From Schizochytrium sp. TIO01 (taxonomy: Eukaryota > Sar > Bigyra > Thraustochytrida > Thraustochytriidae), in contig SMSO01000034.1 in assembly GCA_004764695.1 (NCBI GenBank), forward strand, positions 327,501 to 391,500: 64,000 nucleotides of DNA, in the 5' to 3' direction. The translations under genes and the position numbers were made by a program. The notes below the pieces were generated by a model that was given only the letters and a program-made list of their open reading frames with translations, did no database searches and was not told the origin of the DNA. Each line of letters opens with the position of its first letter. The first letter of the stretch is position 1. Below, in pieces: positions 14,957 to 35,933 of this stretch.

Positions 14957-15768
14957 CACCAGATTGCGTATCGAGTCACGCATTTTGGCGATTCAAAGCT
15001 CCATAGACCTTTGCATTGACTGTTCTGGCTCGCCATTTGTTGAATACTAAAGAATTGAATATTTTGAAAGTAAACAAATTTATTTTAATTTTGGTTGAAG
15101 TTATGTATAGTCATTTTTCTTCCCGGATCCTCAGAAACAGTTGTCGCATGGGGGAAAGCCAGCCACGTTTTTTACTTGTGTTGACTTCAACCAACCAAAC
15201 AATAACAATAGTTGAGTTTTGGTTTTGAATTTTGCGACTTACATTGGAAATATTTATTTCTATATATATTTAAAAAAATAAAGATGTTACCTATTTCCTA
15301 GTCCACATTTACTAAACCACATAATATGATATTGTTATTATTGTGTATTTCTAGCACAATCACCCTTTCGGCCTTTATTTACTTCGCCTCACTTATGTAA
15401 CGTAGAACTATATGAGCTTGTACCATTAACTTATTTTTTCAAGGTCTAACATACAAGTTGTGCAACTTTTCTCTTTCTTGTTATATTTCCACTCAAAAAA
15501 CAGGTATATCGTAAACTTTAGGATATATATATATGTATAAAAAATTTGATTTTAAAAAAAAAGGTACCGTTGAGATACATTTCCCGGTTACCATGTTGGC
15601 AATGAGTGACCTGCCAGTACACAATTTGACTTGATAATTCTAGTTCCTTATTCTTTAATTGTATTTTTCCAACCAACTAAAACCTTAACGTATGTGGGTA
15701 GGCAATTGACATGAGACCAGCTTGTTAACACCGCCGCATTCAATGCTTCAAGTACCCTGGATAGGTCA
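14957..15768. other. Array spacer 1
   Basis: 812 bp, very AT-rich, with runs of A and T and TATATATATATG near 15524. No gene seen. The element GACATGAGACCA at about 15710, upstream of copy 2, recurs upstream of copy 3. Confidence 0.4.
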
Positions 15769-17076
15769 ATGAGCTGCAAGGCAAAATGGCCTTTCGCAGC
15801 ATGTAGCTATGGTGGAACCTGCAACGTGACGCTTAATACGTGTGTCTGTACGGAGTGGTTTATGGACACTGGTGACTTTTGGACAGAACCTGGCCAAGAT
15901 TGTGTTTTACCATGGTTGTTTCGTGATGTCTTGATTGTTCTTTCAATTCTGACCTCTTTGGGCAGCCTCTGGACAAGATTGATAGAGCTATATAAAGCCC
16001 ATCTATCTTTTTCTGAGTTTCGTGGGGGTAGCAAAAATCCATTTCTACGTATTCTTAGGTTTCATCAGCTTGGGTTAGTCACAAGCCTGTCTGGTATTAT
16101 TACGAGCGTTGGGTATTGGACGTGGCGTAATGATTTGATCGGAAGACATATTCCAAAAACTATTTTCTTCGCAATATCTGGCTTCATACTCTGGTTTACA
16201 GCTCACTATACAGCAAAGTTCTGCATTGATAGTGTTGCAATTATTCTCGGGACGCTTCGTCCTGGAAATCAACATAAATTCCTTTTATTCGTGAAAAGAT
16301 ATAGTCCAGCCTTCACATTTCCAGGGCAATTCATAATATCCATAGTATGCCCTATTGGTATATTTCACAGTACAGACGGGTCCTTCGAAAAATGGGATAT
16401 TATCATCACAGCGTTTGCATTGTATCTGTCAATATCATTTGCTATCGTGCTTTTGCTAACATTTCAAGGTCTTATTCAAACGCTTCATGAAGCAGTTTTA
16501 AGAAGTAGATATCAGTCACAAAAGCAGGGTCGTAAGCAAGATCCCTTTGCAGTTAAACTTACCGGTCTTATCGAGAGGGCCAAGAGTGCAAAGTTGTGGA
16601 CGCAGCGATTTGTTGTACTCAATATTTCAATTTGTTTTATTATTTGCGTCTGGCCTTGGGCTCGGCCATTTATTGTTCTTGAACCAACCATGTTTTGTCT
16701 TTCTCTCAGTATATGCGATATTGCCAACTGCAAGCTTGGTCAAGGTATCGCAAACACAACGACCTTAACCAAAATTTCGAGCAAGATTTCGGTGTTCAGA
16801 GATTCCATAAGAACCCTCGTGGTCCGAAACTCACAGGTATCTGAATTCCACAGTTCGACCACACGTCAAACTCATAGTTTCCCATCCCGGAGCACAATTT
16901 CTCAGTCCCCACTGTGCAGAATGAAAACTGCTTTAGTCCGCGTTCAACCAAAGGAACAATATGTTTTGCCAGCGAACCACGCCTTGGAACAGATTAGTTT
17001 GAAGGGAAATCAAGACTCAAAAGAATCTGCAGCTGAATTTTCAACTTGCAATAAAAATACAAATGACTCGTCATAA
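15769..17076 (+). CDS. EGF-like seven-helix membrane protein, array copy 2
   Basis: 435 residues from ATG (MSCKAKWPFAACSYGG). It has the EGF-like module with the same 8-5-6-1-17 Cys spacing and an NVT sequon. Seven hydrophobic segments follow, with the family marks YWTWRNDLIGRHIPKT after helix 2, HYTAKFCIDS at helix 3, CPIGIFHS after helix 4 and VWPWARPF at helix 6/7. The cytosolic tail is about 60 residues longer than in the other copies and rich in Ser, Thr and Gln, so it may carry phosphorylation or adaptor sites. Same strand as its neighbours, each with its own spacer, so they are independent transcription units and not an operon. Role inferred as surface receptor or sensor; it resembles no named family that I can recognise. 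Confidence 0.85.
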   Translation: MSCKAKWPFAACSYGGTCNVTLNTCVCTEWFMDTGDFWTEPGQDCVLPWLFRDVLIVLSILTSLGSLWTRLIELYKAHLSFSEFRGGSKNPFLRILRFHQLGLVTSLSGIITSVGYWTWRNDLIGRHIPKTIFFAISGFILWFTAHYTAKFCIDSVAIILGTLRPGNQHKFLLFVKRYSPAFTFPGQFIISIVCPIGIFHSTDGSFEKWDIIITAFALYLSISFAIVLLLTFQGLIQTLHEAVLRSRYQSQKQGRKQDPFAVKLTGLIERAKSAKLWTQRFVVLNISICFIICVWPWARPFIVLEPTMFCLSLSICDIANCKLGQGIANTTTLTKISSKISVFRDSIRTLVVRNSQVSEFHSSTTRQTHSFPSRSTISQSPLCRMKTALVRVQPKEQYVLPANHALEQISLKGNQDSKESAAEFSTCNKNTNDSS

Positions 17077-18151
17077 TTCAGCCTGCTAGCCACTTCTTCG
17101 CAAAATGGAAAGAAGGTATGAGCCCATGTTCAACAAAATGAACTATACTTGTTACAGACACTTTGATAAAAAGAATAAAAATCTAAAGAAGCTACGAAAC
17201 TTACAAGATTCTAAAACAGAAAGTCCAATATGGCCCGTCGCCTTTCAGATTCACAAAAGTTTGGTCATAAATGAACAGAATTCCTTTGCCTATCTATATT
17301 CCACGATTCTAGGTATACATCTTTCTCTTTCGAAAAGTATTTGCCTATGTATCTAACTACATGTGGGAGGGTTGTCTTGACATCTTTACCTTTATTCTAA
17401 AGTGTAGAATAGATCAACTCTAGCTATAAAGGAACGCATGTATAACTATCCTTATCCACCATTATACCCTAAACCCTGATTTATCCACATTTCAGGATTT
17501 GCTCTATGTGGTTTCAAAAACAGAGCTGTAAATAAAGGGCATTATCAAAAAGTTGGTATACCCAATTTATTTATGTAAAAGTAGTTTATTCTTTAAATTA
17601 AAATTTTATCCTAAAGAAACATTAATACTTGACTATTCCGTACCTAGTCATGGACTTCCTTTGATTAATAAACTGCTGTACTCTACTTAGACTTTTTATG
17701 AGAGTTGCCTTCACTTGCGAGAATGTCAAAGCATGGTTACAGTACTCTGTAGCTAGTGCGATTGTTCCCTCGTATTTAAACTTTGAATCTTTAAGCGACC
17801 GCGACCGTAATATAATCACTTCCTGGAAAGTTAAAACAAAAGGCGCCCTTCAGTAGATGGCGGGATTTCCTCGCACGACTATGAAAAAGTATCAATTAAA
17901 AGCTAAAAATAAAAATATACCCTATAGAAATGAAATAATGATTAAACCGGTTTGAAAGGCAAAGGTTCCGTTAAAAGAATAATGAACAGGTTCCAAGAAA
18001 AACTCACAATTGATTGAACGGCAAAATCTAGTCTTGTGATGTTCTGAGCATTCTAGACATGAGACCATAGACGGATATCAACACCCGTCGAGCATGGTAA
18101 AACATGTACAATTGAGTCTCACGGAAGTGATTCGTGTTTTTTTCTACCTGG
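17077..18151. other. Array spacer 2
   Basis: 1,075 bp, AT-rich, with no gene recognised. It contains GACATGAGACCA at about 18057 and AATTGAGTCTC at about 18112; the second resembles AATTAAGTCTC upstream of copy 4. Confidence 0.4.
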
Positions 18152-19291
18152 ATGGCCTGCGAAGCACGCTGGCCTTTCTCAGCTTGTAGCTATGGAGGTA
18201 TTTGCAACCAAACTCTAAAAAGATGTGTATGTACTGAAGATTTTGTCGATGTAGGTGATTTCTGGCCTACTATAGGTGCGGATTGTGTTGTGCCGATACG
18301 CTTGCGAAATGGATTTATTTTTGCATCCATTGCAGTTTCAGTAATCAATTTTATTCTGAGAATACGAGAGCTGTACCGTGCAAAAAAGGCTAAAGATTGC
18401 TTTCAGGGCAGTCACAAAAATCCACAATCTCGTATTTTCTATTTTCACTGCTCTGGACTTTTGATGTCAATAACCTGTGTCGCAATGAGCCTAGGAAGCT
18501 GGTTCTGGCGGGATCAGATCATTGGTTTGCATTTGCCTAAAACTATTTTGTTTACTATTGCAGTCCATGTGACTTGGTTTGCGATTCATTATGCTGCCAA
18601 CTTCTGCATAGACAGTATTCATCTCATGTTAGGTAATCTATGCCCGACAAGTCAAAACCCCTTGCTTAAGTTTGTGACACATTACAGCATGATTTTTAGT
18701 TACTCTGGAGTAATCATGAGTTCTATCATATGTCCATTTGGGTTGTACTTTAGTGATAGCGATTCGAACTTGGAATTCTGGGCGCTTTTATTTTCCAGTG
18801 TCGCTGTATATGTCACAATTATTAATGGTGTTATACTTTTATTGTCAATTGAAGGCTTTATAGCAACCTTGCGCGAGGTCATTAGTCAGAGCAAATCCAC
18901 TGTGTCGAAAGCACAAGAAAAGACCGAGGAAATAGTTCAAAAATTAGAAGAGCTAATACAACGGTCGCTTAAAGTTAAGGTTGTTCTTCGACGCCTGTTG
19001 TTGTCTACTCTCATGTTCAATCTGGCGTTTTGCATTTGGCCTTGGGCACGCAGCTTCATTAGCCTTGAAGTTGTCATTCTTAACTTCTCAGTAAGTACTA
19101 GTGAGGGAGCGTCTCGGCTACTTGGAAGAGTAGTAGCTCAAAATTCTGTTATGAAAAGAAATACAAATAGAAATGGTGTCCAGTATCGAAAAGCAGGCGT
19201 GAGAAGCTCTCAAACGAATTCTACTTCCGCCACGGTTCACCCTGAAGCAAGTGCGCAATATTCCTCACAAGCAACTCCGGCTCTGTCTTGA
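18152..19291 (+). CDS. EGF-like seven-helix membrane protein, array copy 3
   Basis: 379 residues from the ATG at 18152. The frame is open a little further to a GTG at 18134, but the ATG aligns with the start of the other copies (MACEARWPFSACSYGG). EGF-like module with 8-5-6-1-17 Cys spacing and NQT sequon, then seven hydrophobic segments. Family marks: ELYRAKKAKD in the first inside loop, SWFWRDQIIGLHLPKT, HYAANFCIDS, CPFGLYFS and IWPWARSF. The third inside loop (KAQEKTEEIVQKLEELIQ) looks helical and charged. It is most similar to copy 4, sharing RAKKAKD and long stretches of helices 2-3, so these two are probably the youngest duplicates. The tail is short and Ser/Thr-rich. Confidence 0.86.
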   Translation: MACEARWPFSACSYGGICNQTLKRCVCTEDFVDVGDFWPTIGADCVVPIRLRNGFIFASIAVSVINFILRIRELYRAKKAKDCFQGSHKNPQSRIFYFHCSGLLMSITCVAMSLGSWFWRDQIIGLHLPKTILFTIAVHVTWFAIHYAANFCIDSIHLMLGNLCPTSQNPLLKFVTHYSMIFSYSGVIMSSIICPFGLYFSDSDSNLEFWALLFSSVAVYVTIINGVILLLSIEGFIATLREVISQSKSTVSKAQEKTEEIVQKLEELIQRSLKVKVVLRRLLLSTLMFNLAFCIWPWARSFISLEVVILNFSVSTSEGASRLLGRVVAQNSVMKRNTNRNGVQYRKAGVRSSQTNSTSATVHPEASAQYSSQATPALS

Positions 19292-20316
19292 GAGATATGA
19301 GAAATGGCCGCTTTTAAAATTGTGCTATGACTACAAAGTAAAGCCTTGGAAGGACGCTCCATAGAAAGCGCTTGATGGCATGCCCTGCTATTAAACTTTC
19401 TCAAATACCTACTGCGAATAATGTTAGGAAAACTGCAGCTTTCATTCGAATGTACCAGTGAGCTCCCAGGTAACCAAATTCTAGATTTATATTAAATTCC
19501 TGCTTTATTTATTCTCCTCCTCGTGCATATAATTTGTGAGAATGGATACTTGAGAACTTTGAATCAAATACTTCTTTATGTGTCTTTTCTCCTTTCACTA
19601 CACAATGAAGTTCTGGAGGCCATACCAATTTCATTTTTCGGATTTTGCTTGAGTATCGTACACCAAGGTATCTACCAGCATTCCTTTTTTTGTTTAAGTG
19701 GTTACGCTACGCTCTCGAGATGCTTTCAAAAGAATAAGGAAGCATAAGTCTGAATGTTGTACCTTTCAACGCTTCCTTGGTTCCTCTCGCTTGTGTTACT
19801 TTTACTAAAGGAGTTCAAAAGAGGCAGCAACACCCGAGAGCTTGAGGAAGAAAACATCTTCCACCAGTATTCAAAGGCGCTCCTCTTATCGATCCTTAAC
19901 TTGGGTAAAAAGTCAAGTTTGCACACCGAGCAATAGAAAGGTGTACATTTTCATGTTCTGATGTACAGTAAAATAGAACATGTAGCTGTGATATCGCCCT
20001 TCCATGTATGAAAACACAGTAGATATGTTCAGATAAGTACCCCTGCTCAAGGAAGATTAATCGTTGCTTTCTGCCCAATATGTTAACCTTTCATTATAAA
20101 CTCCTAGACATATTTTTATTAAAGTTTTATATATTATTGTGTTCTATTAATTAATCCGTTTCCATGTTAGTGAAATTTTCATGCATATTATCGCTATTAT
20201 AATTAGCAGTTTACCAAAAGCAGATCCCGATCAGACATATAGTCAAACCGTGGACGACTACTACAGAGTTACCCATGCAAAATTAAGTCTCGACAAGACA
20301 CGACTGACTTGCGGCC
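19292..20316. other. Array spacer 3
   Basis: 1,025 bp with no gene recognised; short frames only, for example 19523-19747, which looks hydrophobic but has no family mark. Confidence 0.4.
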
Positions 20317-21441
20317 ATGGCACCGTGTGAAGCCCGTTGGCCATTCGAAGCTTGCAGCTATGGAGGGTACTGCAATGAAACATCAGGAGAATGTATTTGC
20401 ACATATAAATTCGTCGATAGAGGCGACTTTTGGCCTACGCAAGGCATCAATTGTGTTGTTCCAAGATATCTACGAGACGGTCTTCTCGTAATAACCATTG
20501 CCATTGCTCTGTTCAGTCTAATGTTTCGTATCTGGGAATTGCACAGAGCGAAGAAGGCAAAAGACAACTACCGTGGTAGTGGGAAAAACCCGAATGATCG
20601 AATTTTCCGCTACCACGCAGTGGGGTTCTTTATGTCTTTAACGTGTGTAGCCATGAGCTTGTGGAGTTGGATTTGGCGCGAAGATTCCCTTGGTAAGCAT
20701 TTTCTGAAAACATTGTTATTCACGTTTTCTGTTCATGTAACATGCTTTGAAATTCATTATGTTGCCAACTTTTGTATAGAGAGTGTAGAAATTTTATTGG
20801 GCGCTCTTTCTCCAGAGAAGAAAGACTGGCACTTCGTGTTTGTTACACGCTATAGTGTGTTTTTTACATACATGGGGGTCATATACAGTTCGATTGTGTG
20901 TCCATTCGGAATGTATTTTAGCAAGAGCAGTTCTCAGGATGAGAGATGGGCGCTCTATTTTGCTGTATCATGTGTTTATATGGTTCTTACTGAAGGTTGT
21001 ATTTTGCTTTTCTCTATCGAAGGGTTCATATCTACTGTTCAAAAGGTCATTGAACACAGCAACCAGACAACCTCAGACGACCGAAGCACCATGTCATTGA
21101 TCAACAGGCTTCAAACACTGATGAAGCGCGCACGCACAGTCAAGTTGATCATCGGACAAACGTTGGTTTCTATTTTTAGCATTAGCGTGGCCATCTGCTT
21201 TTGGCCTTGGGCACGGAGCTTTATAATTCTCTCCGTTATAAACATTAATTTCTCCGTCACAGCCAGTGATGCAATATCACAGTTGCTAGCAAGGGTTGTT
21301 GTGCGAAATACTATCAACAAGATGCCGAAAAATAATCCGTACCTTTCAATTAATAGGTTACGTTCAAATCAGTCGCCTGCTACAGTCCTTCCGAGGTCTG
21401 CTTTAGGTTCTAAGTCTTCTGGAGTTTTGCCTGAATCATAG
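20317..21441 (+). CDS. EGF-like seven-helix membrane protein, array copy 4
   Basis: 374 residues from ATG (MAPCEARWPFEACSYGG). EGF-like module with the invariant 8-5-6-1-17 Cys spacing and an NET sequon, followed by seven hydrophobic segments with the marks ELHRAKKAKD, SWIWREDSLGKHFLKT, HYVANFCIES, CPFGMYFS and FWPWARSF. An AATAAA 8 bp after the stop (21449) is a plausible polyadenylation signal. Closest relative is copy 3. The cytosolic tail is short. Function inferred as a surface receptor-like protein by family architecture only. Confidence 0.86.
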   Translation: MAPCEARWPFEACSYGGYCNETSGECICTYKFVDRGDFWPTQGINCVVPRYLRDGLLVITIAIALFSLMFRIWELHRAKKAKDNYRGSGKNPNDRIFRYHAVGFFMSLTCVAMSLWSWIWREDSLGKHFLKTLLFTFSVHVTCFEIHYVANFCIESVEILLGALSPEKKDWHFVFVTRYSVFFTYMGVIYSSIVCPFGMYFSKSSSQDERWALYFAVSCVYMVLTEGCILLFSIEGFISTVQKVIEHSNQTTSDDRSTMSLINRLQTLMKRARTVKLIIGQTLVSIFSISVAICFWPWARSFIILSVININFSVTASDAISQLLARVVVRNTINKMPKNNPYLSINRLRSNQSPATVLPRSALGSKSSGVLPES

Positions 21442-22643
21442 TTCTTTCAATAAAGTGTAATCCTTACGGAGGTCTTCAATTACAATGATATTTCAGTGTC
21501 ATGGTAATAGAACGATAGAACCCAAGATGAAAAGCTTCAAAATCAAGATGATAAGGTACTCTACTTAAATGATACCAGATATTTAGTGGGGTTTGATAGG
21601 AACTCAATACCCATGAACGTGCAGAGTGGTTGTTGCTTTGAAAGCTCACAAAAGTAGTACCGCAAAAAATGATGACTTGAATACTTTTAGCAATCATAAG
21701 TTCTATCATAGTGGCTCAATTTCTACATGCAGGGTAAGATCGAGCGGAATGCAATGAGGTGTAAAACCCTTAAGGTTCACACGGACGGAAGGCCTAAGAA
21801 AGATACTAGGTGTTTAGAATGCGCTGATGGAGTGTAAATTCAGGTGAATTCTCAACTTTTTATTGTTTTTGTTTAGAGGTCAAAATTTTAGTTTTTCCTT
21901 GAAAATAGTGTTTTATTTGCCCAAACTAAAGTTGCATTTACATAAATTGTGTGATTATCCATATCTTAGCATACCTTTATCCACATAACAAAGCGACCTT
22001 TCCCAAAAGCTGGATCGCTAAATTTTATTTCAAGCCTTCGTAAGTATTTTAAACATCCTGAAGTAAGTCATTATTACCGAGGCCAAAAATCACTGAATAT
22101 AGCGGATTTGATGATAAAGTTATGAGGTTTGTCTGGCTACAGCTTGCTTTTGATTAATTTCTGGGGAGATTTTTTTATTAAAGACGATATTATATATCCC
22201 TTTCCTTGTGCGAGACTTTATACTTTTAGATGAGGCTATTTATTGTGGGTATCTGATACTTTATCTCTAAAAATAAAACATAACTATTTTTGTCAGACAT
22301 TAGGGAACACGGGACTAGAACGATTTGCAAAAATTATAGATCCGTTGGACTTCTTGTGTCTTCGACACAACAAATAGACCTAGCAACCACATTACCTCTG
22401 TACCTCAGTTTCATGACCCAACGCATTTAATGGAAACCGCTTCCTCTCTCTTTTTTATTGTTACCTGGGAGCAAGCATGTAGGGTCCGTACTGTTTCTGG
22501 GCACAACCAACATAGACATGCTCATATCTGGCCCGAGTACAGTTTATTCATCCAAAGACCCACTACCGAGTAACTTTGGAAAGTCTCATCTATGTCCAAA
22601 GTGTTTTCGAACAGGTGCCAGGCCTTTGCTTGAGAGCTAACAG
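21442..22643. other. Array spacer 4
   Basis: 1,202 bp, AT-rich; no gene recognised. Confidence 0.4.
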
Positions 22644-23798
22644 ATGCCGTGTGAGGCTCACTGGCCATTTCCAGCTTGCAGCTATGGCGGTATTTGCAAT
22701 GAGACTCTTGGAAAATGTATATGTGCATCGAACTATATTGACACGGGAGATTTATGGCCACTATCTGGGGTCGACTGCGTTGTACCTAGCTTGTTGCGCG
22801 ATGGTATACTCTTCTTAACTATTGTTCATTCTATAATTAACTTTGTTTACCGCGGACTTGAACTGAACAAAGCTCGGCATGAGATGGATGAGTTTCGAAA
22901 GCACAATCATAATCATGGACATAATCCGTTTGTACGCATATATGAATTCCACCGTATGGGGCTCATCCTTAGTACATCGAGTCTCTTTGGGAGCATTGGG
23001 TACTGGATTTGGCGTGACAAGATCATTGGGAAGCACATTCCTAAAACCCTTCTTCTTGCTTTCACCGGGTCAATTACTTGCTGCTTTGTCCACTATGCAT
23101 CTCTGTTTTTTATAAGCAGTATTAGATCAACATTTGGGCAAACGAATTCCGCTCAGGGTAGACTATTCGAACTTGTTCAGAGCACAGGGTTTCCAGTGCT
23201 TTATGTTGGTCAAATTGTTCTTGTGATTGTCTTGCCTTTTGGCCTTTATCGGAGCGATGACTCATCAGCAGCAAATTGGTCTATTGCATTTGCAGCAGTT
23301 TGTGTGCAGGTTCTAGTCTCTTATCTGGCTGTCGTTGTCATGACTCTACAGGGATTCATCATGATGCTGAGAAATGTCATCATTGTTAACAGGTATAGAT
23401 CTCCGCATCAAGCTGTAGTTGAGAAAGGTATTAGCGATATGATTACACGCACTCAGCGTGCGATGTTTTGGATTAGCCTTGTGATTCTTCTAAATATCAT
23501 GTTTAGCATATTGCTATGTGTATGGGAATGGGCGCGCGCCCTAACGCCGTTACAAGTAGTGCTTATCAGCAGTTCAGTAACTCAGGCAGAGGGCGCTACA
23601 CGAAGACTCGGTGAAGTGGTTTCACGGAATACAAATAGACGCACAAAAACTCGTTTAGCGGCGCTTCGAAAATCGATTGAGGGCTTTGCAAACTCTCGAG
23701 GTTCTCTGAGAGCATCGAATGTAATCTATCCAGAAACTAAAGAAGCGAAGACCAACGACACAAAGGGTAGTATAGTTCTATTGACAGAAAACAAGTAA
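22644..23798 (+). CDS. EGF-like seven-helix membrane protein, array copy 5
   Basis: 384 residues from ATG (MPCEAHWPFPACSYGG). EGF-like module with 8-5-6-1-17 Cys spacing and NET sequon; seven hydrophobic segments. Family marks: YWIWRDKIIGKHIPKT, HYASLFFISS, LPFGLYRS, and VWEWARAL, where the usual Pro of WPWAR is Glu. The first inside loop is His-rich (KHNHNHGHN), unlike the other copies, and may bind metal or simply be a low-complexity insertion. It is the last member of the array. A poly-T/poly-G tract follows just downstream. Confidence 0.86.
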   Translation: MPCEAHWPFPACSYGGICNETLGKCICASNYIDTGDLWPLSGVDCVVPSLLRDGILFLTIVHSIINFVYRGLELNKARHEMDEFRKHNHNHGHNPFVRIYEFHRMGLILSTSSLFGSIGYWIWRDKIIGKHIPKTLLLAFTGSITCCFVHYASLFFISSIRSTFGQTNSAQGRLFELVQSTGFPVLYVGQIVLVIVLPFGLYRSDDSSAANWSIAFAAVCVQVLVSYLAVVVMTLQGFIMMLRNVIIVNRYRSPHQAVVEKGISDMITRTQRAMFWISLVILLNIMFSILLCVWEWARALTPLQVVLISSSVTQAEGATRRLGEVVSRNTNRRTKTRLAALRKSIEGFANSRGSLRASNVIYPETKEAKTNDTKGSIVLLTENK

Positions 23799-24950
23799 TA
23801 CCTGCCCAAGGCAGAACGACTATTTTTATTTTTATTGTTTTTTTTTTGGGGGAGGGGGGGGGGGGGCATGGTAATGCTTATTCGGCGCTTTAGTTTTGAT
23901 TCCTTCGGCCTTTTAAGCAGAATACGTATATTTCAATCAAATGGAAACAGGTTTATTTTTGTACAAACGAAAGCATATTTCCAAAGGCAATCACCTAGTT
24001 TTGCAATGACGATCATATGATAACAACCATGCTACATCACTTTATTGCCCACGAACGAAGTTCCAAGGTAGCGCGCGCTTCCAAAATGATTCATTCTACT
24101 GCAACCAATTTATTTATTTTATTAGTATCATTGTGAGCGAAAATAAATTCAAATTTAATCAGTTCCATATTAAATTAGACAAAAGAAGTCAAGAAATTTG
24201 AACGCGAATCTTGGTTTTTAATCAATCTGCAATGACGCCGTTATAATGCCTTTAAAACTTGGATGCTAGATTACCTGTCGTTTAAACGAGGCAGCTACGT
24301 TTCTAAATTTGTGCGATTCCGAGGGTCATAAAAATGTTGGTCATTCTTTGGAATCCTCTGACATCTTTGTCTCAGTTGATAAACAAATGCATCATAGAAT
24401 CACTGCCAGAATCAACGATAGCAAACAAGCCACTAGCTGGACACTAAGAGCCGCGGTGATCTATATTGCGGATGACAATTTTTTCAGTAAACCAGAATTG
24501 TGCATGCTACTCTATTTCAGAATCCACCAAGATATCATAATGACACCAAACACAAAACCAAGGAAACAGGAAAAATAAAAGGTTCACGTATTTGGAAGGT
24601 TGCAATTGGTGCAAGATGTTTCTAAGGAAAGCATTTTCAAATACAAATAACCTTAGGTATAAACAACGCCATCATTTTTATTTTTTTATTTCTGCATCGA
24701 GTCAATTTATAAAAAAGGATGAAACTAGTTAGAACGCAAGTTACGTTGGAAGTTGCATGCCGTACTCAGTGATGCCAAACTGCTTTTTATCAATTCATAT
24801 GTCCTGCATAGCCTAGGGGTTCATTCCATAACATTTGTACATACAGGTCAAACCTTTTAATTTCTAGTTCAAATGCAAATTTCGAAACTTTTCTAAAGTG
24901 GATGAATATTAAACTTGAAGAATGCTTGAATCGCACTACTTTCTTAGTAT
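23799..24950. other. Spacer after the EGF-7TM array
   Basis: No convincing gene. An 89-codon frame at 24309-24578 begins at TTG and has no recognisable domain. It holds the G-tract listed separately. Confidence 0.4.
23848..23866 (+). repeat. Poly-G tract after poly-T
   Basis: Five G, one A, then 13 G, immediately after about ten T. It may form a G-quadruplex or mark slippage; the length may also be affected by sequencing error. Confidence 0.8.
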
Positions 24951-27482
24951 CTAACGATAGTACTGTTCAGAGGAGTTTCCAGACTCAGATGAAGGAACCC
25001 GTCGCATCGATAAGCGCAGCCTTGGGGCTGTGGAGTGGCTTTCAGACGAAGGAGCTCGCCTCATGGATAATCTCGATGCTATGGAAAGAGTTTTGCTCAT
25101 AGAAATACGAGGTCCAACCGAAAGGCGCTGATATGCTCCTTGAGCATTTATCTTTGCACCTGTCCAAAAAGAGCGACGGCGACTTGCTTGTGCATGCCGA
25201 ATAGCTTGCTCATTAAGGTCCTGTTCTGTAATTCGAAGATCATAAAGAAGACTTCCAATTAATGATGGGATTTGAGTTTCTGGCTTGCGTTTCTCTGCAG
25301 AGCCTGCTTTAATCTCATAGGCCCCAAGATCTAGGAGTAGTGTATTTGGTTGTGGTTCATATGCTTGAACTTTACGGTCCCGCAAAGCAGACACTCCAAG
25401 GTCTTCTTGAGAAAGATGAAGTGAAGAAAATTCTCGATCACACTCCTTGTTTATCCACTTCAAAGCCCCAGCCCAAGCCGCATTTCGAGCTTTGGCTGGG
25501 TCGCAATGCACGTGGTAGTCAAGATCAAGGTGGTTTTCCCTAGCTAGAGTTGCAAGTTCAGTGTACAGACGCGATCCCAGTCCCCGGATTTTTGCGCCAC
25601 CACCAACAACTTGTATATTTGCAGCAAGTGAGCTGTGAGTGTCTTCTTCACATAACAGGATGCATTCATGAATACACTCTGCCAGTCCTACACCGCCCAT
25701 TGACCTGCTCATGAATAAAGGCTCGAATACTGATGTTCGTTCGTCCCCTTCCAAACGTACGAAGCGTCCATTTGGCAATGTGAAGTTGGCTGTCTTGCCA
25801 TCATCTGCAGTTTCCACTGACTCAACAAAGCATAAATGCTCCTTGATTTCCTGTACAAGGACCCAATCGCTTGCTGCATCAAGGAAAGCTTGGTCATCAG
25901 AATCAGCGAGAAAATCTTGTAAGTCTTCGTTTGCCTGATGACCGCCCCAAGTTATGATTCGAAAGCCCTCAGGAATAATATGACCATTAACAACCGGAGT
26001 CACCCGAAGTGATGAATGACCGAGGTCAATCACCACAGCATTTGTTCTGCCCTTTTCCAAGGCCACCATCTCAGGCATGCTTACAAGTGTGACTGAGGCC
26101 GCCTGGAAATGCTCGAGAAGAATTCGCGTCACTACAGCATCCATTCGATTTGTTAATGGTGCCTGATGAAGAACAACCATGTTGTGCTCTGTGGGGTCAA
26201 TGTTCAATTCATCGGTAAATATCCAGTCTAATAAGGTTTCCATATCTGGGATCAACATGTCTTCATCCAGTTGACGGAAAATGCTATCAAAAAGCAAAGG
26301 GTTACGCAGGTCCATCAGTGCCCTTGTGTTAGTTAGAACATCACGGAGTCCAGGTTTATACGGTGGGGTGTACCGAGAGTCAACGTTCGCCCAAATCATT
26401 CGTTGCAATGCCGTGGAGGCGTTTGCATCTCCTTGCATGAACTCTTCTCGCGGGATCCACAGCAACTTAGTAAACGCTGCCAAGCTTGCAAGAATTGAGC
26501 CTCCTACCCACGTGGACCATTGGCCGTCGGGAGTTGCGCGAACACAATGTCTTGGAAGCCACGATGTCTCCTTCAGCTCCATGTCAAGGCGATCTACAAA
26601 TCCAGGAATTCTAGATGGGGAACCCATCACATATATTTTCTGCGCGAGGTCAGTTTGGCTGAGCACAGGGCACTTGGACAACGACTCCAAAACTAGCTCT
26701 GCGAGACCTGGAACTTGAATCTCAGCAAGGCCTGGATGAAACACCAATGCACACGCTTGTTCAAGGCTGCTATTGCTTAAAAGAACCTCCTCGCTACTGC
26801 CATCAAGAAGTTCCACGACCCTTGGTGTTGGCGCAATTGCACTCAAAGCAGTGATGTCATCACCCGAGATGCGGCCGTGCTGTAACAATGCCTGGTGTGC
26901 TATCTCTAAACTCGTAACACTCTCCTGGGAAAGAAATGTTAAGTAGCTCGCTGCGTCACGAAAACCAATTTCCGCGCGAACGATACCTTCGGGAAGCGGG
27001 ATACCATCATACACAGGAAAGACCGTTGTATAGCTCTCGTCAATATGCACAGTTAAAACATCATTAGAGTTGAGCTCGTACGTGAGCATTTCAGTAGGGT
27101 AACAAGAAATCGAAGGTACCTCACGTGTCATGAACAGGGTTTGAACAAGCCTGTGTCGTTGCTCCCGAGGGGTCAGAGCGCTCAGCGAAAGTAGAACCGC
27201 ATGTTCTTGACCCAGGATATCAAGTTCTGTGTATACGTGTTCTAGGACTGCATCCATAGCCTGCCAGTCCTCCACAATCCCACGCTTCTGCACCCACTGA
27301 ATAGCTAGACCAGACTTGAGAGCTGCACTGCCTACGAGGCTATCAGCGCCATTTTTCGCTACCACGTTTGCAAAAGAAAGCCTTGGCACATCTTCGCCCG
27401 CAAATCCCGCTTGTACCTCAAAGTCGCCAAGGTGAAGCACTAGTACTGCTTTGTCGTCATCCGCAGGATCTCCTATTGTCAT
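24951..27482 (-). CDS. Tandem actin-fold protein with permuted second domain
   Basis: 843 residues from ATG. Residues about 12-348 are a full actin-like domain: LVLHLGDFEVQAGFAGED, GIVEDWQAMDAVLEHVY, VYDGIPLPEGIVRAEIGFRD, then VWIGGS-like TWVGGSILASL and WIPREEF at its end. Residues about 384-690 are a second actin-like domain starting only at the ME.L..IF segment (DMETLLDWIF, EHNMVVLHQAPL, VVIDLGHSSLRV, NGHIIPEG, VVGGGAKIRGLGSRL, AAWAGALKWI). It lacks the first beta-hairpin with phosphate loop 1. That missing piece appears after it, at 712-745 (TLLLDLGAYEIKAG, then IPSLIG), so domain 2 looks circularly permuted. Domain 1 has lost ATP-site residues (Asp to His, Lys to Gln in loop 1), while the permuted half keeps Asp and Lys. 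The tail is basic and Ser-rich with two SMRR.PSSES repeats. Role unknown; cytoskeletal or nuclear Arp-like. Confidence 0.85.
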   Translation of the reverse strand: MTIGDPADDDKAVLVLHLGDFEVQAGFAGEDVPRLSFANVVAKNGADSLVGSAALKSGLAIQWVQKRGIVEDWQAMDAVLEHVYTELDILGQEHAVLLSLSALTPREQRHRLVQTLFMTREVPSISCYPTEMLTYELNSNDVLTVHIDESYTTVFPVYDGIPLPEGIVRAEIGFRDAASYLTFLSQESVTSLEIAHQALLQHGRISGDDITALSAIAPTPRVVELLDGSSEEVLLSNSSLEQACALVFHPGLAEIQVPGLAELVLESLSKCPVLSQTDLAQKIYVMGSPSRIPGFVDRLDMELKETSWLPRHCVRATPDGQWSTWVGGSILASLAAFTKLLWIPREEFMQGDANASTALQRMIWANVDSRYTPPYKPGLRDVLTNTRALMDLRNPLLFDSIFRQLDEDMLIPDMETLLDWIFTDELNIDPTEHNMVVLHQAPLTNRMDAVVTRILLEHFQAASVTLVSMPEMVALEKGRTNAVVIDLGHSSLRVTPVVNGHIIPEGFRIITWGGHQANEDLQDFLADSDDQAFLDAASDWVLVQEIKEHLCFVESVETADDGKTANFTLPNGRFVRLEGDERTSVFEPLFMSRSMGGVGLAECIHECILLCEEDTHSSLAANIQVVGGGAKIRGLGSRLYTELATLARENHLDLDYHVHCDPAKARNAAWAGALKWINKECDREFSSLHLSQEDLGVSALRDRKVQAYEPQPNTLLLDLGAYEIKAGSAEKRKPETQIPSLIGSLLYDLRITEQDLNEQAIRHAQASRRRSFWTGAKINAQGAYQRLSVGPRISMSKTLSIASRLSMRRAPSSESHSTAPRLRLSMRRVPSSESGNSSEQYYR

Positions 27483-29926
27483 TCTGAACTAGGTTTTGCC
27501 CTTTCCTTGACACCGAAGACCACCCTCCCTGAAAGGCAACCAGGCCTGAACGCCCTGGCGCGCCTTCTTCCTCGTCAGTTGTCTCTAAGGTACGATCTTA
27601 AGCCTTTCCTCACGCCAGCTACGGGTTCGCGGCAAGCGGCCACGCGGGCCAATCCGTGTCACGAGTTCGGGCTTTGCAAGCCTCTCCAATACTTGAACGA
27701 TCATTCTACGCACAAGACGGCGTAAATTGCGTGCTAGCTACCTGAAAGTCATTTCTACCCCAAAACTAGATTAGTCTTGGTTATTCAACATTGCTGTTTT
27801 TTGGAAAGCTTAAAGCGAATGAGCACTTTGGCTTTGCCAATGCATATTGCCGTGGAGGGGGTGGCATCGCCTCCATCAGCCAGATCAATTACGCCGCGCG
27901 ACTGTCATTGGATCGTGGAAAAGCTCTTGATTTGTGCAGCAAGACCATGGATCAGCGCTGTTTAGTGTCAGGGTCTCACTACTACTGTTTTCAATAGCAG
28001 GTTTCTACAAGGTGCACGCGCTGCTTCGCGAGCCCGGAAACTCAGATGTTTGTTTGGGTGGGCTGCGAATACCTGGTGCCTGCTTGCTACATATCTGTCG
28101 GTCAAGGGCCTCGTCGGCAGCGCGGGTTGCTAGAAGCTATTTAGCAGGTCTGGTCCGCCGCCTGCAGAAACAGCCGGACCCGGACAACTCGCCATCCCTT
28201 CTTTTAGGCCTGCAGTGTTCGATTGAGTCAGACGAGTGCACACCCTGCGCGAGTGAAAACCGTGCACAATTCAACGTTGACTATGATTACCATATATTAT
28301 TTAGCTATTTATGTAAATAAAGCGACAGTCCCAGTTGCAGCCTTCTAGGGGTAGGCACAATGATTGAGTTTCGTCTTCAATCTGTATTCTTTATACAAAG
28401 CGAGTGACTGTTTTAGCTTGATTTGTACCTAAGTTTGAAGATTTTAACTCGGTTTCAGAGCGAGTGCTGTTTAAATCATGATAATACACCTAGTTAAAAA
28501 GAATTAACATATGTATATATATATGTGTGGGTAACCAAAACTTTGCATTAATAAAAAGAGTAAAAGTACTTTAATATTAATATTAAAATTAATCTAACAC
28601 AAACCAACAACCAAAAAACGTAAACTAGACAATCAACATCAATCTGTGCAAGAGGCCTGCCATGGTAAGCCCGTTGTCTCAATTCGCCTGCGTGGAGTAC
28701 AATACTCGTCGGCGCCACATGCATTTGCCAGGGTCGCTGATCTCGCTTGTGAGCAAATCTGGAATGAGCGATGCAAATCTATCCATAAATGTGGGTTTGA
28801 GGTACCTACGTAATGCAGAGGTACTGCGAGGACATCGGAAGGGACATCTTGACGATGATTGTTGATCGAATTGCGGAGGGCTCGCGAGCTTCGAATTCCT
28901 GATGTTTCAGTCACTGCTGTGGCATCGCTCGCATTGCAAACCCGCGCTCTTGGCCAACGCAAATAAATATCAACCTGCCAACCAAAGACGAGGAGCCTGG
29001 GGACAAGAAGTCCAGCTCTGTGGCACAAGCCCAGTTTTGGTATCAGAGTTGTGAACTGGCGCTCTTTCGAGCGAGCAACCGGAGAGAGGGAGCAAAGCTT
29101 TCATGGGCACGGCGCCGTACTAGCTGCGACTCTGCTCTTTCATGGAAGCGTCAATCGATCACTTTCCCTGAGAATCCCCAGGCCGTGGGTGCGTCTGCAC
29201 AGAGCTCTAGTCGCCCCTCGAATCAAGGTACAACCTGTTTGGTATAAGTCCTTCGCGAGAGGCTGGACCCAGCCCCGTGCTTCAATGATCTTCTTCATCT
29301 CCTGCTGCCTGGGCACCAGTTCTTCCCTCTGCTCGTGACCTGCTCGTCGCAGCACTATGCATTCCCTCGCTATTATTGCCTCGCGGCTTTTCAGAGTGCC
29401 AATCGGATTGATCGACCTTGCCCCGTGTCTCGCCATTGGAGACTTGGCACACGCAACTCTGAGCATCAACTTATCACGTCTCAAAGCAAAGCCGAGTCAG
29501 GCAAATCAAAGGTTTCGCCACTACGTCAAGGCGAGCTAGAGCAGAGACTTTCATAATGATTTATTCGATGCTGCTGCGACCTTAGATATTTCTTCTTCGC
29601 GAGAACATTGCTGCGTCGAAGCCAAGCCAAGCCCATCTCACCGTGCATGGACTCTGGCCGGTTTTCCCAAGAAGAACAGCCCCTTGCTTCGAAACGCAAG
29701 TATAAAATGATAGAATACTAGATTTAGTTGGTGCCTGCTGTCGTTCTTTGTACAGGTTCGCTGCACCTCGCCTTTTGCACTTGAACAGGGCTTGCTCGAG
29801 CTGAGCAGAATCAGCACCTGTCTCCGAACAAGCGTATCTTTCGTTTGCCTCACAGGGCTAGAGCATGCCATGTCTCTGCGACACTAGAATTTGAGAAAAA
29901 GAATCGCGTGCAGGGAACTGCTCTGA
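27483..29926. other. Spacer, no gene recognised
   Basis: About 2.4 kb. The first part is GC-richer and may be the promoter side of the actin-fold gene. Longer frames (27934-28320 plus, 28639-29028 minus, 29140-29484 minus) begin mostly at non-ATG codons and show no domain. I cannot assign them. Upstream parts of the decayed kinase gene may lie near the right end, but the kinase N-lobe could not be found. Confidence 0.35.
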
Positions 29927-31116
29927 CCTAGCCAAATAGATCACAGACCATCTCATGAAAGCAAAGAGACTCGGGATCGACTTGCTATGGGTCTACTCGT
30001 TGGTATTGCAGATTTACATACTTATAATATCGTGCATTATCACATCAAACCAGAAAACATTTTCCTGACAAGCAACGGAACACCATTGCTTGGCGATTTC
30101 GACGGTATCTAAAATGCATCAAAAATGCAGGTCGAACCACTACCTACACAACTCTCCAAGCAACGCCTCGATACATTGCCCCTAAGCTGAAAAATGGGTG
30201 CACAGGAACATTTCAAACCGCCATGGATATGTACTCCGTGGGCGTTGTGTTGGAGGATTTATACCCGGAGCCAACCACTGCAATGCTAGAACTCATTAAT
30301 TCTCTCAAAGCAGAAGACCCTGGTCAGCGTCTAAGTGCTTGCGAAGCACTTCAGCATGGTGCATTTGGAGTTGATAATACATTCAAAGTATGTCTCATTT
30401 GCATGGAGGAAAAAGAGTATCGCGAAGGAACCAGTTGTGAAAAGGGGCATTTAATTTGCAAATATTGTGCAGCAAGTTCGGTAGGGAAAGCTACAGAACC
30501 TCAAGCCCATGTACTTGTAGATGCCGAAGGAACGATGGCGTGCATGAAGCCTGGATGTGATGGTAGAATTCCGAGTCGAGATATTACTCGCCTTGCGCCA
30601 GATGCTGTAAATCACCTACTCCTCATCGCACGGATAAAGGTAGAAAGCGAGGCAGCAATTCGGGCCGAGCAAGAAGTTCAAAGACGTATCGCGGAGTTTC
30701 TTGGAGCAGAGGGCTCGACGCGTGACACAGTGCTCCATCTACGGTACATTCAAGACAACATTTTGAATGTGTGCTGTCCGAGTTACAACACTTGCTTCGA
30801 TCAGTTCGATGGCTGCTGTGCTGTAAAATGTGGGAACGATGCGTGTGGCCATCATTTTTGTGCTTGGTGTCTTGAATTCAGTTCACACGATAGTAATGCT
30901 TGCCATAATCATGTGAGAACCTGTCCTTAAAAAATTAGACAAGATGCATTCTTGGCTGGCTCATTTGAGCAAGTTCGCGAGGCTTGGCGGCTTATACGTG
31001 CTGAACGTCTACGCATGTACTGGAGCCAGGATAAAGCCCTTCAGAATGCTTTGGTAGTACAACTCGCGCCTCTGCTGACACCAGATATTGTCGGTTCAGA
31101 CTTAAAACTAGAATAA
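29927..31116 (+). pseudogene. Decayed protein kinase / RING-IBR fusion gene
   Basis: Remains of a kinase C-lobe fused to a RING/IBR (RBR-type) ubiquitin ligase. The kinase part reads LAMGLLVGIADLHTYNIVH, then HYHIKPENIF where HRDxKPEN is expected, then LLGDFDG, ATPRYIAPK and MYSVGVVLEDL. Removing 26 bp at 30105-30130 (GT...AG) joins the frame across the activation segment; otherwise there is a frameshift. From 30390 comes CLICMEEKEYREGTSCEKGH with RING-type Cys/His, then MKPGCDGRIP, and a final zinc module (CAVKCGNDACGHHFCAWCL, ACHNHVRTCP). TAA at 30928 interrupts, yet the same frame runs on 61 more codons (RQDAFLAGSFEQVREAWRL) to TAA at 31114, as expected for this family's tail. The N-lobe and its ATP-binding Lys were not found. 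Catalytic HRD is degenerate. Probably non-functional; a live RBR fragment from ATG 30223 to 30930 is possible. Confidence 0.65.
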
Positions 31117-31889
31117 ATAAGAGTAGATATGTTTGAGTAACAAATGCAATTTTTAGAACACGCACGAATTACCATTTTCTTCTTGCTTTACTTTCTTGTG
31201 GACTGTCCTGGGAGCCTCCATAGTGCTTAAAAGGGTTGTACAAGAAGTAGCGAACCCATCTTCAATCCAGTCATTAACTAATCACATTAATTTGTCCGAG
31301 GCCATGCTCACGATGATAAAATGTGCCTTTTATTTCTCATGTATCGAAATCAGGATTGTGTGAAGCCAGTAGTGAACAGATAATTTGCTCGACATTTTGT
31401 CAAACTCGTCTCTTCTTTTTTAATGTTAAAATTTAAAAAAAGAAAAGGAAAAAGTTCATGAAATCAATTTACAGAAGGCGCCATAAAACAGCTTTCGAGC
31501 ACAAACATAAAACACTAGGTCAAATGAAGCATCCCGAAGTAGGTTTGCTACTTTTCGAGTGCATATGTATTACTCTATCTGCCAAGCTTGTATCTAGACA
31601 GCTATTATGAGCTCTGATACGTGTCTTTTTTCAATTATATTAAATAAAATAAATGAAATATATATAGGCCTACATATTTCTAACTTTCTTTCTTTGGCAT
31701 GTTTTAGTAGGTACCTCTCGGCAGTAGCTTTCTACAAGCAATTCACTTCTCTTGAGAGTGACGTTGGGACGGATCCAAACCAATTAACGTTGGTCAGAGC
31801 CACGTCAATTTGCCGCTCGAGACTTTGATCTTGTAGACTGAGACGAACCTTTGTGCTTGGTCAGTGGCCTGCTGCCTTAACGTTTCGCA
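31117..31889. other. Spacer, upstream of reductase gene
   Basis: AT-rich 770 bp with no gene recognised. It presumably contains the promoter of the reductase gene that follows; no element can be assigned. Confidence 0.4.
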
Positions 31890-32996
31890 ATGAGCAGCGG
31901 CGGCCAGGACAAGAACGACAAAGGCCTGGTGCTGGTCTCTGGTGCCAGTGGCTATGTTGCGAGCCATGTCGTGCGCGAGTTTTTGGACAACGGGTACCGA
32001 GTTCGTGGAACTGTGCGAGATCTTGCCTCCAAGGCATCCCACCTGGAATCGTGGGCTTCTGAAGGCGATCCTCTTGAGCTCGTCCAAGCTGATCTTACTG
32101 ACCCCGATTCGTGGAATCGTGCATGCGAAGGCTGCGATTTCGTGGCACACGTTGCGAGCCCTTTTTTTGTGGGATGCAGCGATGCGGACGCTGAGGAGAA
32201 ACTTTATATTCCAGCTCGAACGGGCACGTTGAATGTACTCAAGGCTGCCAAGCACGCCAAGTCTGTGAAACGCGTAGTGCTCACAAGCTCCATGGCAGCC
32301 ATCGGCGGAGGCCACTCCAATGAAGAGCTAGAAAGTGACCCTGAAATCCTCTGGACAGATGAAAACTCTGCGGACCCATATTCCAAGTCCAAGACCATGG
32401 CTGAGAAAGCCGCTTGGGAATTTGTACGCGAGCATCCTTCAGCTTTCGAGCTCGCGGTGGTCAACCCCACACTCGTGGTTGGGCCGCCACTCTCGCCAGG
32501 CGATGCAACCAGCCATGAAATTGTTCGAAGATTAGTCATGCGTCAGATGCCTGGCGTTCCAGACCTCGAGTACACTCTTGTAGACGTCCGCGATGTCGCA
32601 CGAGCTCATCGTCTAGCTATCGAGGTTCCTGAAGCAGCCAATCAACGTTATGCTTTGGTCGGAGGTCTCATCAATTTCTTGGACTGGGCCAAGATCTTGC
32701 ACGACGACCTTAAGCCGCTGGGATATAACCCTCCAACACGAAAACTACCATATGTCTTACTATGGCTAGTCTCGTGGTTTGATGCTGGTGTCAGAACCAT
32801 TTTGCCAAGCGTTGGTAAACCTGCAGCAAGGACAAATTGTGAGAAAGTTGAGCAGCAGCTGGGACTACAGTTTCGTGACCTTAAGAGCACGCTTATCGAT
32901 CATGCTCACGCCTGCATTAGCCAAGGAACTCCTGGATTTAAAATGACTGCCGCCTTTAAAGCTGCCGAGGCCAAGTCAACATCTCATGATCAGTAA
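31890..32996 (+). CDS. Extended SDR reductase, dihydroflavonol/cinnamoyl-CoA reductase-like
   Basis: 368 residues from ATG. NAD(P)-dependent extended short-chain dehydrogenase/reductase. The Rossmann motif GASGYVAS is at 18-25 after a beta strand (GLVLVSG), DLTDPDSW lies near 69-75, the SS of VVLTSSMAA is at 133-134, and the catalytic Tyr-x3-Lys is Tyr164/Lys168 (YSKSK). The following helix AEKAAWEF and VVNPTLVVGPPL fit the dihydroflavonol 4-reductase / cinnamoyl-CoA reductase / methylglyoxal reductase branch. Family members reduce ketones, aldehydes or CoA esters with NADPH; the substrate here cannot be told. Size is close to the family norm. No signal peptide is seen, so it is probably cytosolic. 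It marks the switch to GC-richer coding sequence. Confidence 0.88.
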   Translation: MSSGGQDKNDKGLVLVSGASGYVASHVVREFLDNGYRVRGTVRDLASKASHLESWASEGDPLELVQADLTDPDSWNRACEGCDFVAHVASPFFVGCSDADAEEKLYIPARTGTLNVLKAAKHAKSVKRVVLTSSMAAIGGGHSNEELESDPEILWTDENSADPYSKSKTMAEKAAWEFVREHPSAFELAVVNPTLVVGPPLSPGDATSHEIVRRLVMRQMPGVPDLEYTLVDVRDVARAHRLAIEVPEAANQRYALVGGLINFLDWAKILHDDLKPLGYNPPTRKLPYVLLWLVSWFDAGVRTILPSVGKPAARTNCEKVEQQLGLQFRDLKSTLIDHAHACISQGTPGFKMTAAFKAAEAKSTSHDQ

Positions 32997-35933
32997 ACAT
33001 TGTGTTGCTTTAATACGTGTTTATGTCTCCATCATAGGCTAGTCTACATTTCACTGAGGGGGAATGCCGACTCACAAGATGTCAGCTTGCACACAAAAGT
33101 TACTGTTGTTGACGCATTGAACACTATAGCGTCTCTCGTCGCCATTCTGTATACTCCCTTCGATTTTCGTCGGAACTTTGCTATTTTCATGTATTGCGTT
33201 GCAAAATAAACTGCTTCTGATTTCTACTTGTCCTGGAAATTTACTAACTTTCTCCTGTCACCAAGCGAGGATCAATCCCTTTAACTTAACTTCCTTTTAA
33301 ACTTGGAATATCGATTTTCATTTTCGAGTCTTTTAAAATCAAACAAAACGACTACTAATTAAGAAAGAAAAACTGTTTTGATCCAATTCAATGAGCGAAA
33401 AATCTTCGCTTATCGAGTATCTAGATTTTTACACAACCATCTTCCGGGACTTACACTGAGAAGTTCTGCATGGGCTTTGTAAAGAACGGATGCCAACATT
33501 AAAAACACGTGTTCATCCTGATAGGCTACAATGAAACAGAAAAATTCGATATAATGATGGGGCCTACTTTGCTGCGAATAGTCGCAGTGAGAGCAAATCA
33601 TTTGCCAATCTCGTCTTGCTCAAAGCGAAGGCATCAACATACAATCTGCAGGATGCAACGAAGTACCCACTTGGCTTGGTGGTCACAAGTGACGCTTATG
33701 TAGCACGCGGCGCCGAGGCTCTCGGGACTTGCCTCAAATGCGGTCTCCCGAGCATTCATAGATAAGATCACTACCATATTGTCATTTCGTTGCTATCATT
33801 GCAGTTCCAGCTAAAGTCTTCCGCAGTTCTCATTTTAGAGCTGAGGCACACTCTGTTCTTTTGGCCTTCCTGGAAACCAGAAGCACAGCCTAAAGTAATA
33901 GGTAACTAGGTCTTACTATGATACCCAAACTTTAAGTTGGGGATTGAAGAATCTCTTCATTAAAGTGTCTCGGCTTGGACTTTTGTTTTCCGAGAAGCTC
34001 TTGATGCTTTTAATGTTTTCAATGTAAACAAAGCAATCATCGTAAAGTGGTCATACCTAGGTGGGTTTCAATTGTTCTCATTTCTTCTGCTGTCGATAAC
34101 AAACAAAGCACACCGACGAATCATCGTTATAGATTCTAAATATTCCATTGATTTCATTTAATTTAAAAAAGTAGGAGAAAATAGCAATTTACAATAAAAC
34201 AACAAAGCTACTTTACGAGTAGATTAAAAATCATGAACCAACTAGATTTGATGCTCAAACCCAATGATCTAGATTACTTATGAAGCTAATGTTGAAATAC
34301 GGACTATGCAAAGCCCGCCAGAGAACTGAAGGTACTGCGCTTTTTCAAAGCACGCTTTGTCAAAGCACTGCAAAGAAGGTGCTCAATATGCGTGATGCTT
34401 TTGAAGCTTTCTGAGTCTCGTGCCACCGCTGCTCACTTCTATGGATAATTAATTAATAACTTAATTAAAGAATATCGCAACTATTTTTTAATATTAAAAC
34501 TTTTAATAAGCACTATGAATAAGCGTACAGTATTCCTTTTGTTTGTATTGTGTTAGCGGTAAGTGAGAAAGCACATCCACTTAGAGAAGATTGCAAAGAA
34601 TCGTGGATTGTGTTGCAACTCCGGCGCGGAGAATGCTCTGCAAGGTCAGCTACAGTGGTACACGATGCAGGCATTGATCATCTGGCCGAGGATCTTGAAC
34701 TACAGCTGTGGCTCCACAATTCTGATATATCATTTTCGATGGGTGATGCAAGGAATGTGGTGATTCTGCAAATGGAGATGCAGAAAAGAAGAGAACCGGA
34801 ACAACTTTGACAAGAACCTGAAGCGGAGTCAGGTCAAAAGCTTTCTTAAGGGAAAGAGGGCGCAACAATGCATATATTTATGGATCCACAGCGAGTTCAC
34901 CTTGTGCCAGTCTTATCAACAACGACATCTTGAACCTAAGGCATGGCGAATCAAATTTGAAGAACTTGTCCAGAATACTTGAACAAGAGCTTGCTTCTCA
35001 ACCGCAGTGGCATTGTACAATGCAGTTTTTCACGTCAAAGGGCGAAGTCTACAGCATATAGTTCTTTTCTCCGCACAAGAGATATGTGCAATGGATTGAA
35101 GACACGTAGAACGCTGTGAGGTTTGGAAACCTTACGAAGTCATCAAAACGTAAGGGATCTCGAGCTCTTCCCTCAACGACTCTGGCACGTACTTTTAGTG
35201 TTACCTACTGCAGCTGTAAGTGGAAGCCTCGGAATATGCAGTTCCTGCTGCGAAGCTTTCTTCGTTGAGCAAAGTCTCCTTCGAAGCCGCTCGCATGAAA
35301 GCAGATCGTTATTTGTAAGAGCAATCCAGATACCCTACGCCTCGTCTGGTTGCAATTATTGTTTGGTGCAAGTCCAAGTGCGTATATTTCTGGAGTAAAC
35401 TAAACACAACTCAACTAAAAAACAAGTAAAACCGACTAAAAGTAACTCGACAAAAGAAAAAAGAAGAAACAAAAATAAAAGAAAAGCCTTAGGATAGAGT
35501 TAATTAAATAAGCAAGCGCCTCGACTCTCAGACTCACACAACATACAAGAGCAAGGCCTGGCGCTTCAGCATTAAGCTTCTTTCTGTGCAACGTGCCTGG
35601 AGAGGGGCTTTAAAAAGCGAACAACGCGAACTCGTCGTCCACCAATCCTCTATCGCTGGACTGATCGACTCAATGGACTACGTCTCCAAGTCGTATCTAG
35701 GAGTCTCACGAAATCTTCACAAGGGCAGTATCCCATTCTCTACAGTGGGGTATCGGTTGCGCCTAAAGTAGACTATTTGGGCACGTAAATAGGATATTCG
35801 AAGTACAGTAGAGTATTCCAACTCTGGGAACAAGAGGAAAAAGCGAAGAAGAAGGAAAGAAAGAAAGGGAAAGAGATTTTTAAAAAGATTTTTTTATTTT
35901 ATTTTTTTCTGGGAAGCAGGGAGTAGATTGCGA
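32997..35933. other. Spacer, no gene recognised
   Basis: About 2.9 kb of AT-rich DNA. An 86-codon frame at 34550-34810 starts at GTG and has no domain; short open pieces continue to about 35100 and could be a very old pseudogene. A-rich and T-rich tracts precede the kinase gene. Confidence 0.35.

Follow-up and report, generated by a model that had tools for sequence, protein, structure and literature searches.

A tandem actin-like protein whose second actin unit is probably circularly permuted

The gene described here encodes two actin-like domains in tandem, and the second domain is probably circularly permuted, with its N-terminal hairpin displaced to the C-terminal side. This is the best reading of one sequence and of structural models of low confidence, and it suggests a natural circularly permuted actin, provided that the displaced hairpin folds back into place. 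The gene lies in a 64,000-nucleotide stretch of DNA (the window; contig C33:327501–391500) from a genome assembly of 64 Mb in 37 contigs. Introns occur in some genes of the host genome, which also encodes a complete set of actin-type proteins of eukaryotes. An open reading frame of 843 codons plus stop runs on the minus strand from window position 27482 down to 24951 without an internal stop, and its parts are listed in Table 1. Stops abound on the plus strand of 24951–27482. The initial annotation had placed the protein at the right location but had left out the strand. Codon use is coding-like across domain 1, the linker, domain 2 and the hairpin. For the hairpin, the codon-usage score is 0.155 bits per codon in frame and negative in the other five frames, indicating that this segment is coding. 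GC3 of the hairpin codons 704–760 (window 25203–25373) is 0.21, compared with 0.42–0.46 in both actin domains, and codon use there is still coding-like.

Table 1. Parts of the tandem actin-like protein, in residues of the protein and positions of the window
Feature	Residues	Window positions	Strand	Remarks
Actin-like domain 1	10–350	26433..27455	-	Complete and normally ordered; degenerate nucleotide site and D-loop deletion
Interdomain linker	352–383 (~30 residues)	26334..26429	-	Without actin hairpin
Actin-like domain 2, body	~384–704	25371..26333	-	Firm for 413–676; both ends only suggestive
Short linker	705–712	25347..25370	-	VQAYEPQP; joins old C-terminus of domain 2 and displaced hairpin
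Displaced actin N-terminal hairpin (phosphate loop 1)	713–745	25248..25346	-	NTLLLDLGAYEIKAG...IPSLIGSL
C-terminal tail	761–843 (83 residues)	24954..25202	-	Basic, serine-rich
Stop codon of the open reading frame		24951..24953	-	

Against Pfam Actin (PF00022; curated cut-off 27 bits), domain 1 scores 151.9 bits and domain 2 alone 115.9 bits, the latter over profile positions 75–381. Our own actin HMM matches domain 1 end to end and in the usual order (positions 3–365, 123.6 bits), confirming the earlier description of one complete actin-like domain at the start of the protein. Domain 2 is matched at positions 82–345 only (102.6 bits), and the N-terminal hairpin is absent. The claim that the second domain starts without the first β-hairpin was therefore correct, the match beginning at HMM position 82 (Pfam 75). 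The NCBIfam MamK model begins in domain 2 at residue 385, at model position 52, with the N-terminus again missing. Within the domain 2 body, the match is statistically firm for residues 413–676, equivalent to actin ~80–345, and only suggestive at both ends. Identity to actin is ~25–28% for both domains, and conventional actins outscore any single class of actin-related proteins (Arps). In the tree that compared the domains with the named Arp classes (Arp1–11), the branches were long and no fork was firm. A recent tandem duplication is unlikely, given that the two domains share 24% identity and show no marked closeness to one another.

An actin N-terminal hairpin was recognised at the C-terminal side of domain 2, as had been noted initially. 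Our HMM finds a third match in the protein, in which residues 713–755 correspond to positions 5–47, the actin N-terminus. The hairpin sequence, NTLLLDLGAYEIKAGSAEKRKPETQIPSLIG, parallels the actin N-terminus. The C-terminal piece alone scores 17.3 bits against Pfam Actin (profile 5–54), and residues 705–760 likewise reach 17.3 bits when compared with a profile of the actin N-terminus, the best of 20,000 shuffles scoring 10.7. The same N-terminal profile found no match in the linker region, residues 351–412. Compared with phosphate hairpin 1, the segment scores 14.7 bits, whereas the structurally related phosphate hairpin 2 gives −2.4 bits. Seven other actin-type proteins of this genome were scanned, and beyond the N-terminus none of them showed a second phosphate-hairpin-1 match scoring more than 0 bits. 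A recent copy from domain 1 is an unlikely source, as D11, K18 and the IPSLIG motif are kept in the hairpin and missing from domain 1. Elsewhere in the genome, the C-terminal piece weakly matches a leucine-rich-repeat-like protein (C36:4772999, E 0.25), which was attributed to chance.

When domain 2 and the hairpin were re-ordered as in actin, Pfam Actin gave a single alignment over positions 5–381 with 137.4 bits, a gain of 21.5 bits over 115.9. With our own HMM, re-ordering raised the score from 106.2 to 114.5 bits, a value that none of 2,000 shuffled hairpins reached (maximum 107.3). In chain order, the protein presents profile positions 75–381 and then 5–54, that is, homologous segments swapped on one chain. 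The two segments are complementary, with no overlap and no part present twice, and their junction falls in the D-loop region. At the outer ends of domain 2, the comparisons of residues 373–425 with actin 52–90 and of residues 663–712 with actin 334–375 are equalled by 6–7% of shuffles. Because neither end is significant alone, completeness of the permuted domain is not supported statistically. A gap-free reading by eye, which looks good but is weaker than a statistical match, equates D381 with actin D56, W670 with W340 and G696 with G366.

Alignment with actin revealed that domain 1 has lost D11 (replaced by H), K18 (by Q), D154 (by H), G156, G182, K213, E214 and G302. In the hairpin, D718, G720 and K725 correspond to actin D11, G13 and K18, and the body of domain 2 keeps D154, G156, G182, K213, E214, G301 and G302. 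Thus, from the site set D11, K18, Q137, D154, K213/E214 and G301/G302, nearly all residues are lost in domain 1, and domain 2 together with the hairpin holds all but Q137, the catalytic glutamine of actin. Neither domain carries the full nucleotide site of a conventional polymerising actin. The site residues of the hairpin match those that the body retains, which argues that hairpin and body act as one site. Domain 2 may bind nucleotide yet hydrolyse it poorly, since the catalytic glutamine is missing.

Two AlphaFold models were generated for residues 345–770. In model 1, actin rows were supplied over the body only and the hairpin was deliberately left unguided, and in model 2 actin N-terminal rows were added (MAFFT), with ~12 residues of most C-fragments staying misplaced over the hairpin. 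Mean pLDDT was 55.5 in model 1 and 60.7 in model 2, where the body improved (many blocks at 80–97). Both models contain a strand at residues 714–718, like strand 1 of actin. The remaining hairpin had values below 50 in model 1, and in model 2 the hairpin was mostly below 50. A DSSP strand requires a partner strand; strand 1 of actin pairs with strand 4, the counterpart of residues 435–439 here. The modelled domain 2 body matches actin 77–344 (Z ~19, rmsd 5–6 Å, TM ~0.41 on the query). Matches in the fold search include the D-loop-cleaved actins PDB 2q31 (subtilisin) and 3ue5 (ECP), whose chains are interrupted in the same loop; as these protease-cut actins have solved structures, a break in the D-loop is compatible with the actin fold. 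They differ from the present protein in being laboratory products with the old termini unjoined. Taken against the circular permutation put forward in the initial annotation, the sequence part of the proposal stood, with swapped order, complementary coverage, the 21.5-bit gain and matching site residues. These low-confidence models neither support nor contradict a packing of the hairpin into domain 2: the strand at 714–718 forms in both, the other hairpin strands are absent, and pLDDT is mostly below 50.

The hairpin might instead be the relic of a truncated third actin, structurally idle, with domain 2 having lost its own N-terminal hairpin. Order alone cannot discriminate here, as permutation by duplication and truncation passes through an identical state, and the low model confidence of the hairpin also fits a relic. 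However, phosphate-loop residues that are gone even from the intact domain 1 are retained in the hairpin, and it ends at the point where domain 2 takes over (profile 54 versus 75). Nothing left of a third unit occurs in any frame nearby, a six-frame search of window positions 19000–34000 having found no actin outside the open reading frame. This alternative, raised when the sequence was initially annotated, is weakened by the absence of such a remainder in six frames within several kb. From what is known of the actin fold, subdomain 1 of domain 2 without its first strands would also miss part of the central sheet. The main argument is that the state of the hairpin fits service to the domain 2 nucleotide site, which disfavours a functionless relic, and we consider a truncated third actin unlikely.

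Strand exchange is a known way of filling a missing edge, and the hairpin, with a short linker before it and a long tail after it, could be imagined to insert into domain 2 of another copy, giving dimers or chains. The N- and C-termini of actin both lie in subdomain 1, though, so it is geometrically simpler for the hairpin to close its own domain, and a swapped hairpin appears very unlikely. An apparent order produced by introns or by an assembly join was also considered. Some genes of this genome look exon-split, such as the Arp3-like gene with its separate matches at C31:7355431, 7356094 and 7356696. In the present gene, however, 843 codons are stop-free through all parts, with coding-like codon use, and no other actin exon is found nearby; a genome-wide Pfam search likewise returned no other actin match near the gene on its contig. 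An artefact of the gene model is therefore highly improbable. Circular permutation of the second actin unit is the reading that we prefer.

No second copy of the permuted tandem architecture was found in the same genome, and viral contigs yielded no homologue with either the protein or an actin alignment as query. A scan of genome contigs with the actin alignment, a query not aimed at permuted actins, returned Asgard actins and contaminating eukaryotic actins. Loci L031, L032, L042 and L051, filed under cyanobacteria, Alcaligenaceae and Verrucomicrobiaceae, hold actins 78–94% identical to this eukaryotic actin and most likely represent eukaryotic contamination of those assemblies. In the host genome, five actin gene copies have equal score and frame length (G000 C36:63614, C31:7107315, C30:5328134, C8:31573 and C30:1633472) and apparently encode identical proteins. 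Elsewhere in the window, positions 13817–23798 of the plus strand carry five tandem paralogues of 374–435 residues, at 13817, 15769, 18152, 20317 and 22644. All five begin with a common Cys-rich segment (C.A.WPF.ACSYGG.CN.T...C.C) and have hydrophobic stretches in common, and the last of them, at 22644, has no Pfam match. In the literature searched, we found nothing relevant on circular permutation with the actin fold, ARP, FtsA or bacterial actins, nor any description of a eukaryotic actin permuted in nature.

The protein resembles conventional actin and the Arps (PF00022) in the scores of its two domains, which exceed the family cut-off by a wide margin, and in the model of domain 2, which matches actin 77–344. 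It differs in having two units per chain, each at ~25–28% identity to actin, and no recognisable D-loop. The N-terminal hairpin is in place in conventional actin and Arps, whereas that of the second unit here is displaced to the C-terminal side. Filactin of Dictyostelium likewise contains an actin domain within a larger polypeptide, but this is a single compact domain with high similarity to actin that follows a long N-terminal extension, and neither tandem nor permutation is reported there (PMC2441452). The host genome itself encodes a second unusual actin fusion, a 1491-residue open frame with CH, SAM and divergent actin domains (L019; G000:C30:501145–502419). In a tree without support (86/45, long branches), this multi-domain protein comes closest to domain 2, and it differs in having one actin domain in normal order (Pfam 6–406).

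On the preferred reading of a permuted second unit, domain 1 would be a degenerate pseudo-actin in normal order. The chain of domain 2 would start in the D-loop region, run through the actin body to the old C-terminus and pass by way of the short linker into the old N-terminal hairpin. The hairpin is expected to refold into the vacant edge of domain 2 subdomain 1 and to complete the nucleotide site, and nucleotide would be bound in domain 2 only. In the D-loop (actin ~40–51), ~12 residues are deleted in domain 1, and no such loop is recognisable in domain 2, in both cases a departure from polymerising actins. Because neither unit can form the usual D-loop contact, polymerisation in the manner of actin is most likely beyond this protein. 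It would form a fixed pair of actin folds and probably acts as a non-polymerising, D-loop-less scaffold or filament-end binder. The basic, serine-rich tail could provide regulation. This tail contains the sequence (R)LSMRRxPSSES twice, and the two LSMRRxPSSES copies resemble basophilic kinase sites.

Within an actin filament, each subunit rests with its barbed-end face on the pointed-end face of the next subunit. The new ends of domain 2 would be at the D-loop, on the pointed-end face, and so the linker that leaves the domain 1 C-terminus would lie near the longitudinal interface. Geometry makes it attractive to picture a covalent longitudinal pair that would cap pointed ends or seed growth at barbed ends, and such a pair of actin folds would correspond, in one chain, to the two Arps of Arp2/3. 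We give only an outside chance to the full scheme, in which the permuted domain 2 and a linker crossing the longitudinal interface from the domain 1 C-terminus, on the barbed-end side, make a covalent D-loop-less pair that caps pointed ends or seeds filaments.

Few protein folds are as constrained as that of actin. If the displaced hairpin packs home, the protein would represent a natural experiment in which an actin chain was opened at the D-loop and closed at the old termini. It would then bear on how the actin fold assembles and could offer a template for permuted, non-polymerising actins.
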